A model generated the notes under the pieces. That model searched no databases. It was not told where the DNA came from and saw nothing but the letters and a program-made list of their open reading frames with translations. DNA of 58,375 nt from Chromohalobacter beijerinckii (GTDB taxonomy: Bacteria; Pseudomonadota; Gammaproteobacteria; Pseudomonadales; Halomonadaceae), in assembly GCF_023061185.1 (NCBI RefSeq), contig NZ_JAKGAK010000020.1, forward strand, positions 1 through 58,375, read 5' to 3'. A program made the position numbers and the translations under genes. Numbering within the stretch: position 1 is the first letter of the stretch; the number at the start of each line of letters is the position of its first letter. This document shows positions 6,761 through 29,679 of the stretch, piece by piece.

Positions 6761-8460
<1,700 letters not shown>

Positions 8461-24238: not shown

Positions 24239-25051
24239 CTAGAAAAACAGGCGACGCAAGGCACTGCCCGGGTCCGCCTCGCGCATGAAGGCCTCGCCGA
24301 CCAGAAAGGCATTCACGTCATGCTCGCGCATGTGCTCGACATCGTCGCGCGTGTGGATTCCCGACTCGGTGACGACCGTGACATGCTGTGGAATGCGCGG
24401 CAGCAGCTCGAAGGTCGTCGCCAATGAGGTCTCGAAGGTGCGCAAATCGCGGTTGTTGATTCCTACCAGCGTCAAATCCAACGCCAGCGCACGCTCCAGC
24501 TCATGAGCATCGTGGACTTCCACCAGCACGTCCATACCCAGTTCATGGGCGTGTTGATGCAATGCTTTCAGGCGGGCATCGTCGAGTGCCGCGACGATCA
24601 GCAGGATGCAGTCCGCGCCGATGGCCCGTGCTTCGCTGACCTGATAGGCATCGACGATGAAGTCCTTGCGGATCACCGGCAGTGCACAGGCCTCGCGCGC
24701 CGCCTGCAAGTCACGCTCGTGGCCCTGGAAGAAATCGGCATCGGTCAACACCGAGAGGCAGCTGGCCCCGGCTTCGGCGTATGCCTTGGCGACCTGGGCC
24801 GGCTGGAAGTCTTCGCAGATCACACCCTTGGAGGGCGAGGCCTTCTTGACCTCGGCGATCACCGCGGGGTCGCCCTCCACAATGCGCCGCTCGAGCGCGG
24901 CGACGAAGCCTCGCGGCGCGTCTTGCTGGCGCGCCTGTTCTAAAAGCTGTGCTTCGCTGACGCGCGCGCGACGCTCACGAATCTCGTCGTCCTTGCGCGC
25001 CAGAATCTTGGCCAGAATCGTCGGCAGGCCGGTGTCGTGTTCATGGCTCAT
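24239..25051 (-). CDS. trpC: Indole-3-glycerol phosphate synthase
   Basis: A 270-residue (beta/alpha)8 enzyme that closes the indole ring from CdRP, the fourth step of tryptophan synthesis. Conserved motifs: ILARKDDEI near the start, [15 protein letters not shown] with the catalytic Lys, FFQG then [29 protein letters not shown] and [12 protein letters not shown]. It is monofunctional, with no TrpF domain fused. The ATG shares one base with the trpD stop (TGATG), and it is the last gene of trpGDC. Confidence 0.97.
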
Positions 25052-26082
25052 CAGCGGTCGTCCTTATGGGCCAGAATACGCGTGAAATCCGCGAGCTCTT
25101 TCATCTTCTCCAACGGCAGTTTGGACCCTTGAGCATCCTGCGCCAGGATCACGCCCTCTTTCAACGTGTCCGCCACGCCGGCAGCGTAAAGCGCGGCCCC
25201 CGCATTCAGCGCCACGATATCCGCCGCCGGGCCATCTCCCACCAGTGCGGCCTTGACCAGCTTGAGGCTATCCTCGGCGGTCACTACTTTCAGCGGCGCC
25301 AGCGACTGGCGCTCGATGCCGAAGTCCTCCGGCGCGATGGTGTATTCGCGAATCTCGCCGTCCTGCAACTCGGCCACATGCGTCGGAGCGGCCAGGGATA
25401 TCTCATCGAGACCGTCCTCGGCATTGACGACCAGCACATGGTCGCTGCCGAGTCGCTTCAAGGCTTCCGCCATGATCGTCAGCAACGCGGGATCGTAGAC
25501 ACCCAATAACTGATTCGGCGTATTGGCGGGGTTGGTCAGCGGCCCAAGAATGTTGAACACGGTGCGCACGCCCATCTCGCGACGCGGGCCGATGGCATGA
25601 CGCATGGCCTGGTGATGCATGGGCGCGAACATGAAGCCGACCCCGACTTCCTGGATGCAGCGCGCCACTTCATTCGGCGGCAGCTCCAGCGAAATACCCG
25701 CTACGTCGAACAAGTCGGCGCTCCCGGAAGACGACGACACGCTACGATTACCGTGTTTGGCGACACGGCCACCGGCAGCGGCAACCACGAAGCTGGACGC
25801 GGTCGAGACGTTGAACAAGTTGGCCCCGTCGCCGCCCGTGCCGACGATGTCCACTAGGTGCGTGCGGTCGATCTCGACGGGCAGCATCAATTCACGCATC
25901 ACCTGCGCGGCCGCCGTGATCTCGTCCGCCGTCTCGCCCTTCATCGCCAGGCCGATCAGAAAGCCGCCGATCTGGGCGTCGCTGGCCTCACCGGTCATGA
26001 TCGCTTTCATCACCGCGTGGGTGTCATCGAAGCTCAGGTGACGGCGACGCATCACCGCGCCGATGGCTTCTCGCATCTGCAT
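25051..26082 (-). CDS. trpD: Anthranilate phosphoribosyltransferase
   Basis: A 343-residue enzyme transferring phosphoribose from PRPP to anthranilate. The PRPP-binding [18 protein letters not shown] motif lies near residues 81-98, then [18 protein letters not shown] and the anthranilate-site segment [20 protein letters not shown]. It is not fused to TrpG, unlike the E. coli protein. It is 13 nt downstream of trpG and coupled to trpC. Confidence 0.97.
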
Positions 26083-26095
26083 GTTTCGCTCCTCG

Positions 26096-26683
26096 TTACG
26101 CGCGGCGTTTCAGAAAGTTGGCCAGAAGCTCATGGCCCTGACGGGTCATGATCGATTCGGGATGGAACTGCACGCCCTCGATATCCAGCGTCTTGTGGCG
26201 CATGCCCATGATCAAGTCGGGCGTGACGTCATCGGCCACGACGCGTGCTGAAATCTCGAGACACTCAGGCAGGCCTTGTTCGGCCACCACCAACGAGTGA
26301 TAGCGCGTCACCTCGAGCGGGTTGGCCAAGCCGTCGAACACACCACGGCCATCGTGCTCGACCCGCGATGTCTTGCCGTGCATGACCTGCGGTGCTCGCA
26401 CCACCTCGCCGCCGAAGACCTGGCCAATGGCCTGATGTCCCAGACAAATCCCGAGGATCGGTAATTTGCCGGCGAAATGACGTACGGCCTCGAGCGAAAT
26501 GCCCGCTTCATTGGGCGTGCACGGTCCTGGCGAGATCACTAGATGACTCGGCGCAAGGCGTTCGATCTCCTCGAGGGTGATGGCGTCGTTACGGTAGGTG
26601 ACGACCTCGGCCCCCAACTCCGCCAGATACTGCACGACGTTATAGGTAAAGCTGTCGTAATTGTCGATCATCAGCACGGACAT
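26096..26683 (-). CDS. trpG: Anthranilate synthase glutaminase subunit
   Basis: A 195-residue class I glutamine amidotransferase starting [20 protein letters not shown]. It supplies ammonia to TrpE. The catalytic triad is present: Cys in [10 protein letters not shown], and His and Glu in the final FHPESI. The oxyanion segment [13 protein letters not shown] is intact. In many gammaproteobacteria this subunit also serves 4-amino-4-deoxychorismate synthase (PabB). It is the first gene of trpGDC, 123 nt after the attenuator hairpin at 26809-26835. Confidence 0.96.
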
Positions 26684-26805
26684 GGCGATAAAGTCCTGTT
26701 TCACATTAAGTTCTTTGGCATGAGCTCTTGATAACGCAGATTGTGGCTCACAATCTTACCCGAGTCGGCCTCTCCAGGTATGCCAGCCGTGCAGGGAGCG
26801 ATAGA

Positions 26806-26885
26806 CACAAAAATGCCGCCCTGACGGCGGCATTTCGTTCAGTCGCAAGCGTGCCGCCCCTCGCTCAGGAGCGCCACCACTTCAT
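26806..26885 (-). promoter_or_regulatory. Tryptophan attenuator before trpGDC
   Basis: Minus-strand order: a leader ORF with tandem TGG TGG (26874-26879); segment 2 GGCGGCA (26852-26858); segment 3 TGCCGCC and segment 4 GGCGGCA, which form the terminator stem AAATGCCGCC/GGCGGCATTT (26811-26835, 5-nt loop) ending in TTTTT. Segment 2 is identical to segment 4, so 2:3 pairing (antiterminator) excludes 3:4. CGCTCC at the leader stop can pair with GGGGCG of segment 2 as the 1:2 stem. A ribosome stalled at the Trp codons would free segment 2 and allow read-through into trpG. Confidence 0.88.
26865..26885 (-). CDS. trpL: trp leader peptide (Trp-Trp)
   Basis: A 6-residue ORF, M-K-W-W-R-S-stop. An in-frame ATG at 26915 would extend it to 16 residues, but the predicted transcript start is about there, so the shorter form is more likely. 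I see no strong ribosome site. Two Trp codons of six directly before a terminator switch define it as a control peptide rather than a functional product. Confidence 0.8.
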   Translation of the reverse strand: MKWWRS

Positions 26886-26922
26886 GGGACCGAATGTCAG
26901 ATCTGGTATATTCATAGCCGTA

Positions 26923-26952
26923 ATAGTGCTCGTGCGTCACGGGCCATGTCAA
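26923..26952 (-). promoter_or_regulatory. Probable sigma-70 promoter of trpGDC
   Basis: On the minus strand a perfect TTGACA (26947-26952) is followed after 18 nt by CACTAT (26923-26928), a weak -10; TATTAC overlaps it. Transcription would start near 26917, about 30 nt before the leader ATG. The remainder of the 519-bp gap up to 27202 shows no other gene. Confidence 0.55.
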
Positions 26953-27202: not shown

Positions 27203-27655
27203 ATGGATACACGTTTTAAAAGCTTCGCCCTCGCCGGTTTTCTGGGTCTCATGTCTATTGGGCAAGCGCAGGCTTTTTCTCTCGATAGCATGAAAGACGA
27301 GGCAGCAGACATGATGTCCGGCAGCGGAGGAGGAGGCAATGGAAGCGCCAGCCTGTTGAGCACGTTATCCAGCGGTTCCTTCAACCCCGGAAGCCTTACC
27401 AATCTCACGGGCGTAATCAGCTATTGCCAAGATAACGGCTATCTCGGTAGTACTGCCAATATCGCGAAGAATCAGGTCATGGAAAAGTTGGGGGTCAATT
27501 CCGAACCCACCGATGACAGCGACTACCAGCAAGGCTTGAGCGGTATCCTTCAAGGCGAGGATCAGGAATTCAATCTGACTTCCCTCGGCGACAAGGTCGG
27601 CGAGAAAGCCTGTGGGATGGTTGCCGATCAGGCCACGTCTTTTGTTGGAGGCTAA
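27203..27655 (+). CDS. Exported DUF2501 protein
   Basis: A 150-residue protein with a signal peptide (FKSFALAGFLGLMSIGQAQA) followed by a Gly/Ser-rich linker (MSGSGGGGNGSAS). The conserved DUF2501 core has GSLTNLTGVISYCQDNGYL, with a Cys that pairs with a second one near the C-terminus (EKACGMVADQ). E. coli YjjA belongs to this family; the function is unknown, and a periplasmic location is expected. It lies on the opposite strand between the two trp units and is monocistronic. Confidence 0.82.
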   Translation: MDTRFKSFALAGFLGLMSIGQAQAFSLDSMKDEAADMMSGSGGGGNGSASLLSTLSSGSFNPGSLTNLTGVISYCQDNGYLGSTANIAKNQVMEKLGVNSEPTDDSDYQQGLSGILQGEDQEFNLTSLGDKVGEKACGMVADQATSFVGG

Positions 27656-29607: not shown

Positions 29608-29679
29608 TCACCATCGCCAGCGTTTGACTGCGCGCATCAACGCATGGGCGCTACGGAATGAGGGAGCATCCAGATCCAT
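29608..29679 (-). CDS. Candidate trpE leader peptide ending Trp-Arg-Trp
   Basis: A 23-residue ORF on the minus strand whose last five codons read K-R-W-R-W before TGA. It ends 84 nt before the trpE start. TTGATA and TATAAC elements lie just upstream. After the stop, TCGCC can pair with GGCGA spanning the Trp codons, or its overlapping GCCGAC with GTCGGC (stem 29581-29602), giving two exclusive folds. Unlike the trpG leader, no T-run terminator follows, so the mechanism is less clear. Confidence 0.6.
   Translation of the reverse strand: MDLDAPSFRSAHALMRAVKRWRW

Follow-up and report, generated by a model that had tools for sequence, protein, structure and literature searches.

The trpGDC operon of Chromohalobacter beijerinckii is preceded by what we take, with a probability of roughly 0.85, to be a ribosome-mediated transcription attenuator in which a leader peptide of 16 codons, encoded on a leaderless transcript, acts as the sensor. 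The element lies in the window (the whole stretch of DNA analysed, 58,375 nucleotides), upstream of three genes of tryptophan biosynthesis, trpG, trpD and trpC. Phage-borne copies of such attenuators in relatives are the surprising part of the analysis and matter more than the window element itself. The features of the window are:

26923..26952, minus strand: promoter, TTGACA (26952-26947), a spacer of 18 bases and CACTAT (26928-26923); from the sequence and relatives
26865..26915, minus strand: leader ORF, MNIPDLTFGPMKWWRS and its stop codon; from translation and relatives, with the start predicted at or next to the first base of the transcript
26874..26879, minus strand: tandem Trp codons TGG TGG, codons 13 and 14 of the leader; from the sequence
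26847..26882, minus strand: 1:2 (pause or protector) hairpin, with the Trp codons within segment 1; from folds and covariation
26852..26860, minus strand: segment 2, GGGGCGGCA; from the sequence, its pairing with segment 3 conserved but not covarying
26809..26834, minus strand: terminator hairpin (segments 3 and 4) and T run; from folds, sequence and conservation
26745..26762, minus strand: CGGGTAAGATTGTGAGCC, a decayed paired repeat between attenuator and trpG, matching TGRGTA-N6-TGRGTA at 9/12 positions; from the sequence
26660..26677, minus strand: trpG codons VLMIDN, which serve islands of relatives as attachment core; from the sequence, the window having no island
26096..26704, minus strand: trpG, listed as an ORF from GTG, with ATG 26683 or 26671 possible too
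25051..26082, minus strand: trpD; from the ORF list and protein-family matches
24239..25051, minus strand: trpC; from the ORF list and protein-family matches

The original prediction, made from the letters alone, was right on the attenuator and wrong on the length of its leader. The marks it had named are present on the minus strand: TTGACA, the tandem TGG TGG, GGCGGCA (within 26860-26849), and TGCCGCC and a second GGCGGCA with TTTTT (within 26834-26809). For the terminator hairpin the folding energy is -16.2 kcal/mol (z -4.67; 0/200 shuffles as good), and for the whole 77-base element it is -39.7 kcal/mol (z -3.52; 1/200 shuffles as good). A generic promoter scan left the leader promoter uncalled in the window because CACTAT matches the -10 consensus at 3/6 positions and the scan needs 4. 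The DUF2501 gene (27203-27655, plus strand) lies on the opposite strand between trpE and the attenuator, and the stretch 5' of the leader diverges strongly among some congeners.

The attenuator is widespread in the family. In a sample of 121 Halomonadaceae genomes, TrpG was found at E<=1e-80 in 119; G086 and G102 were excluded from the counts of trpG upstream regions. An upstream ORF of the form WW..stop followed by a terminator stands before trpG in 57/119 genomes from 14 genus groups (the WW class, whose T run begins 48-83 bases past the leader stop), and an RNA model found eight more with a leader that has one Trp near its end. The original prediction had named relatives without the Trp codons and the alternating pairing as evidence against it; 54/119 genomes have no attenuator that we could find adjoining trpG. 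Among these, 22 have the end of trpE 25-170 bases 5' of trpG; in one of the 54, G014, the attenuator lies ~52 kb off, behind an island. The N-termini of the leaders are highly variable and their C-terminal ends read WWRS, WWRL, WWWRL or similar. A Trp-bearing in-frame leader ORF is found in all 65 elements, of which 57 were selected for WW and eight were not; the Trp codons of the WW set are thus not independent evidence, since the set was chosen for them.

Chance was gauged on 1,503,332 bases over both strands, made up of the window and 80 loci from named genomes. Upstream ORFs with an ATG start and ending in WW plus at most four codons gave 34 rows in these bases, 14 of them with a terminator-like hairpin downstream. 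When a terminator was required together with a -35/-10 pair whose end lies 5-8 bases upstream of the ATG, five rows at four places remained, one place being counted twice owing to a WWW. All four places lie 5' of trpG, one in the window and one each in Billgrantia kenyensis, Salinicola avicenniae and Salinicola salarius. The leaders at such named loci are equal to leaders in the family sample, which points to Halomonadaceae as the family of the window.

In its own genome the window element scores 90 bits with the RNA model and the next match 32.5 bits or less. The E-values of the model are over-optimistic (17 own-genome matches have E<=1, 16 of them at 32.5 bits or below), and the best matches in the family sample away from trp loci, which mark the noise level, reach about 40.6 bits. 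Close kin of the window element were not found outside the family: across 293 genomes of the order, at least 12 of which belong to the family, no outside match exceeded 40 bits. Weaker or different attenuators there may have been missed, as the search applied strict filters and scored 14 candidates in each genome. Membership in the Rfam family Trp_leader (RF00513) was rejected: it aligns over its full length at 17.9 bits against a gathering score of 41. The Rfam scan of the window gave no gathering-level match at the attenuator, where RNAI (18.6) and DnaX (12.5) also score below gathering. Elsewhere in the window (8035-8317, plus strand) 5_ureB_sRNA (RF02514) is matched at 85.6 bits against a gathering score of 40.

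The position of the promoter argues for a leaderless start. TTGACA or TTGACG with a spacer of 16-18 bases is present in 56/57 WW cases. With the -35 and -10 elements scored jointly and the gap to the leader ignored, the distance from the end of the -10 to the leader ATG is 6 or 7 bases in 51/56; the five exceptions have 9-13 bases, and the window has seven. With the single-Trp cases included the gap fits in 64/65, G119 being the exception, a count that favours the result because the in-frame ATG nearest 6.5 was chosen. Initiation about seven bases past the -10 would fall on the first base of the AUG, and the -10 sits where a Shine-Dalgarno sequence would be expected. The near-constant gap therefore places the start of the transcript probably at the leader AUG, as predicted from promoter position. 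The same attenuator could instead be transcribed from further upstream, with an ordinary 5' untranslated region before the leader, and the weak -10 and the predictive nature of the leaderless start leave some room for this; we consider it quite unlikely given how constant the distance from the -35/-10 pair to the ATG is across 14 genus groups and where the -10 sits.

Covariation was assessed in an alignment (A1) of 51 distinct sequences, six of the 57 segments having been dropped as duplicates; one row, L179, is misaligned in segment 3. For the structure made of 1:2 and 3:4, the alignment has 53 cells with changes on both sides, where shuffles give 19.2 +/- 3.2 (0/500 as high). The original prediction had proposed checking segments 2, 3 and 4 for covariance in Halomonadaceae; what covaries is 1:2, with both-side changes in 6/14 pairs, and this covariation-backed pairing takes in the Trp codons. 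The three of these pairs with an unbroken record lie where segment 2 is opposite the codons that follow WW. The 3:4 terminator helix is 97.6% paired and near-invariant, with little covariation, and 2:3 shows no covariation above shuffles (165/500 as high for cells paired). Antiterminator and terminator would exclude each other, as originally claimed; the segments are complementary and 2:3 is 93.6% paired. The missing 2:3 signal would be the expected pattern for a segment with two partners, and the antiterminator is predicted from complementarity only.

The most stable and most conserved part of the element is the terminator, as it would be if the terminator stood by itself, for example as a fixed damper that does not sense Trp. 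We regard a plain terminator as very improbable, since it would leave the Trp-bearing leader ORF, present in every element, and the covariation of the last leader codons with segment 2 without a part to play. That trpGDC is under Trp attenuation, as originally proposed, is supported by the anatomy, the spread of the WW class and the 1:2 covariation. Least tenable is a six-codon leader, MKWWRS from ATG 26885, which the original prediction had put forward: this ATG is present and in frame, and 7/57 WW cases (the window included) have one, but it is missing in 50/57, lacks a preceding Shine-Dalgarno-like sequence, and lies ten codons downstream of the in-frame ATG 26915, the promoter-fitting start, which is kept among relatives (15-17 codons in 54/56). 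From that ATG to the stop (26867-26865) the window leader translates to 16 codons, an ordinary length for a leader peptide, and for that reason the remark that it would be among the shortest falls.

The predicted behaviour of the leader RNA, from its start to its response to Trp, would be as follows. RNA polymerase would start at or next to the A of AUG 26915, and the bare AUG at the 5' end would serve a ribosome as its initiation site. If charged Trp-tRNA is plentiful, that ribosome would reach the stop and cover segment 2; 3:4 would then form and halt transcription in the T run, near 26809, with an RNA of ~107 bases as the product; the fold with a ribosome at the stop is 3:4 at -18.9 kcal/mol. 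With charged Trp-tRNA short, the ribosome would stall at codons 13 and 14, inside segment 1, and 2:3 would pair before segment 4 is made, letting transcription continue into trpGDC; with segment 1 masked and segment 3 just made, the fold is 2:3 at -14.2 kcal/mol. An untranslated RNA would form 1:2 plus 3:4 (-47.2 kcal/mol in the fold without a ribosome) and terminate. Once segment 4 is present, 3:4 (-27.8 kcal/mol) beats a fold constrained to 2:3 (-15.5 kcal/mol); antitermination must therefore precede the emergence of segment 4, a timing that is also that of classic trp attenuation.

The E. coli trp leader has the same plan, with a tandem-Trp leader peptide, 1:2, 2:3 and 3:4 pairings and a U-run terminator before trp genes. 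It differs in that its leader has a ribosome binding site, whereas the operon in the window is trpGDC and its leader is probably leaderless. Pseudomonas shares the operon trpGDC with the window and differs in the leader (RWRW, not WWRS); its trpG leader ends in ARWRWR(A/G) in 8/16 loci. Attenuation in P. putida was reportedly described by Olekhnovich and Gussin in 2001, to go by the title of their paper. For P. aeruginosa, an account available in part places premature 3' ends in trpGDC near a possible GTG upstream ORF. In Sinorhizobium meliloti, according to the portion of the source available (PMC7298713), the rnTrpL RNA of the Trp attenuator begins with the ATG of trpL, a precedent for the leaderless start; trpL is a short ORF of 14 codons compared with 16 here; that leader controls trpE(G), its start was measured and it has known roles in trans, whereas the start before trpGDC in the window is predicted.

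Islands in trpG were found in relatives of the window genome. In G003, a member of genus group g3 (which holds the leaders of the Salinicola loci named above), the first trpG codons come after a WWW attenuator (81 bits), and next to them comes a tyrosine integrase gene with the domains Arm-DNA-bind_3, Phage_int_M and Phage_integrase; a minor head protein match lies near the integrase. The intact trpG comes ~45 kb further along; before it stands a second attenuator, different from the first (52.8 bits, leader MTTAPIASIKSWRLH), which has a promoter of its own in the same layout. G014 has the same arrangement over ~52 kb, and there the trpG end is without an attenuator. Close relatives of the integrase (E<=1e-100) occur in 10/275 family genomes, and 9/10 stand directly after a 5' fragment of trpG (loci L379-L384 and L409-L411); four (G003, G014, G015 and G082) were recognised by a script pattern and five (G058, G443, G535, G493 and G102) by eye, the G102 locus of trpG fragment and integrase being cut by a contig end. 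In the tenth, G055, no trpG fragment was seen beside the related integrase, and trpG lies on another contig with an ordinary WW attenuator. Prophage-like islands of one integrase clade integrate in the 5' end of trpG and part trpG from its attenuator. Seven islands have the intact trpG on the same contig, about 35-52 kb away, and one of the seven (G003) has an attenuator at its trpG end; it is absent in G014, G015, G082, G058, G535 and G493, and a phage-borne attenuator is therefore not the rule.

Two provirus contigs of IMG/VR carry single-Trp attenuators, found with the RNA model, at their trpG-side ends:

L508 5727-5808, plus strand: attenuator at the right end of a 46.8 kb contig (left end L426)
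L509 776-688, minus strand: attenuator of leaderless type before trpG, 57.4 bits, leader MTSISMTIAKQWRLVI

The first contig has an integrase identical to that of G003, and its trpG-side end is identical to G003 at 245/245 bases. L509 is by name from the same genome as contig L427, at whose end lies a 66% identical integrase. Matches to phage families near the ends include an anti-repressor (L509) and an RdgC-like exonuclease and DNA methyltransferases (L508). Two distinct elements, that of G003 and L426-L508 and that of L509, therefore carry an attenuator. Among proviruses with related integrases, the model search found an attenuator in 1/8 (L426). Four of the six viral contigs that matched the segment-2 pattern (L506, L507, L510 and L511) have no model match, look like chance and were set aside.

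At their trpG end, 7/7 same-contig islands have a paired repeat, TGRGTA-N6-TGRGTA, at one offset and with 11 or 12 of 12 positions matched; it stands before the integrase at the other island end too. Matches of at least 10/12 occur in 27/119 trpG upstream regions and 0/105 trpE upstream regions, against about 1.5/119 expected from shuffles that move blocks of two bases; 26 of the 27 are at one of two offsets before trpG (-87 and -97; the -84 of the island comparison is the same place as -87). GTGAGTA alone was rejected as a marker: it does not separate the groups, and the paired repeat does. In the genus of the window, 7/10 genomes have the repeat at 10/12 or better, and the congener G001, which has the same leader peptide as the window, has it at the same offset with 12/12. 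The window copy lies ten bases further from trpG than the repeat of the islands. In two Pseudomonas loci (L056 and L059), paired GCGGGTA-like repeats stand shortly before trpG in a layout like that of the arm-like repeats of Halomonadaceae.

The window genome (G000) has no match to the integrase clade of the islands and none adjoining trpG. Its decayed repeat at 9/12, set beside the 12/12 of G001, suggests that the window attenuator may be what is left of one end of a lost prophage. The window leader is of WW type and has no close resemblance to either of the phage-borne copies (128/176 and 136/182 aligned bases); this argues against recent descent from them. The repeat at 26745-26762 could also be a site for a host regulator or an RNA element and no trace of an integrase arm site: in genomes where no island was found at trpG, repeats lie before the gene at either of two fixed offsets, and the window copy is decayed and displaced relative to those in islands. 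We think a host site unlikely, however, in view of the same repeat at every same-contig trpG end and again before the integrase, and of its excess before trpG over both trpE upstream regions and shuffles.

Comparison of the attenuators hints at exchange between genera. The L509 end comes closest to the single-Trp attenuators of G074, G084, G025, G114, G062 and G098, listed by falling similarity (from 198/237 to 177/239 identical among aligned bases; genus groups g20, g1 and g19), so that similar attenuators stand before trpG in three genera. G025 is of the window's genus; against five of its nine congeners its trpG body is 88-95% identical and the stretch from leader to trpG 60-65%, whereas comparison with G074, which belongs to a different genus, gives 79% identity for the stretch, 96% for the core and 77% for the trpG body. 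Its upstream region scores 138 to G074 and 46.5 within its genus, where the 99th percentile between genera is 98; high between-genus scores arise too where the stretch holds trpE coding sequence (for example G005, G023 and G051), which is not the case in G025. The single-Trp attenuator of G025 (L011) is other-genus-like, and the switch to its own genus falls at the attachment core. By this comparison G025 is a mosaic at the core.

Insertion in the 5' end of a gene has a precedent in SXT, which inserts in the 5' end of prfC and supplies a new one. The trpG islands resemble SXT in the integrase beside a trpG 5' fragment and in the new promoter and start at the far end. They differ in that two of them supply a replacement attenuator, which would sense the end product of the interrupted operon; the window itself is without such an integrative element. 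The main text of PMC2965389 has no mention of trpG, trpE, tryptophan, Chromohalobacter or Oceanospirillales. In P. aeruginosa, according to the part of PMC5467263 available, a prophage-like element lies between trpE and trpG; later papers, also available in part, describe it as a pyocin cluster.

A tentative reading, for which the odds fall a little short of even, is that the trpGDC attenuator of Halomonadaceae is a mobile module, brought by prophages, left behind when they are lost and swapped between genera, and that the window holds such a leftover. Prophages at the 5' end of trpG would cut the operon from its attenuator and bring a leaderless Trp attenuator of their own, and trpGDC would therefore stay under Trp control in the lysogen. 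The attenuator would stay after loss of the prophage, so that attenuators would come to be swapped between genera at the core.

A second Trp leader ORF, MDLDAPSFRSAHALMRAVKRWRW and its stop codon, lies upstream of trpE (window 29608-29679, minus strand), and the leader end TGGCGNTGGTRA occurs in 83/105 family trpE upstream regions. In the window this leader has no convincing terminator, and our guess would be Rho-dependent or translational control. A trpE terminator class was rejected: a lax search flagged 40/83 leaders, and the hairpins it printed were mostly weak or without a proper T run. In genus group g10 (13 genomes, e.g. G010 and G058), 13/13 have no TrpE match at E<=1e-150 and 12/13 have TrpG at 1e-80; another anthranilate synthase may be used.

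Among the open-licence papers of PubMed Central that our searches brought up, no title or abstract beginning reports a leaderless Trp attenuator or a phage-borne copy for Halomonadaceae. With the window element, the classic trp story gains a Trp attenuator spread through the family, its sensor probably leaderless, and leaderless initiation in a gammaproteobacterial attenuator becomes directly testable. If phage ends do carry copies of a host amino-acid attenuator, mobile DNA would preserve, and then exchange, the regulation of the operon that it interrupts.
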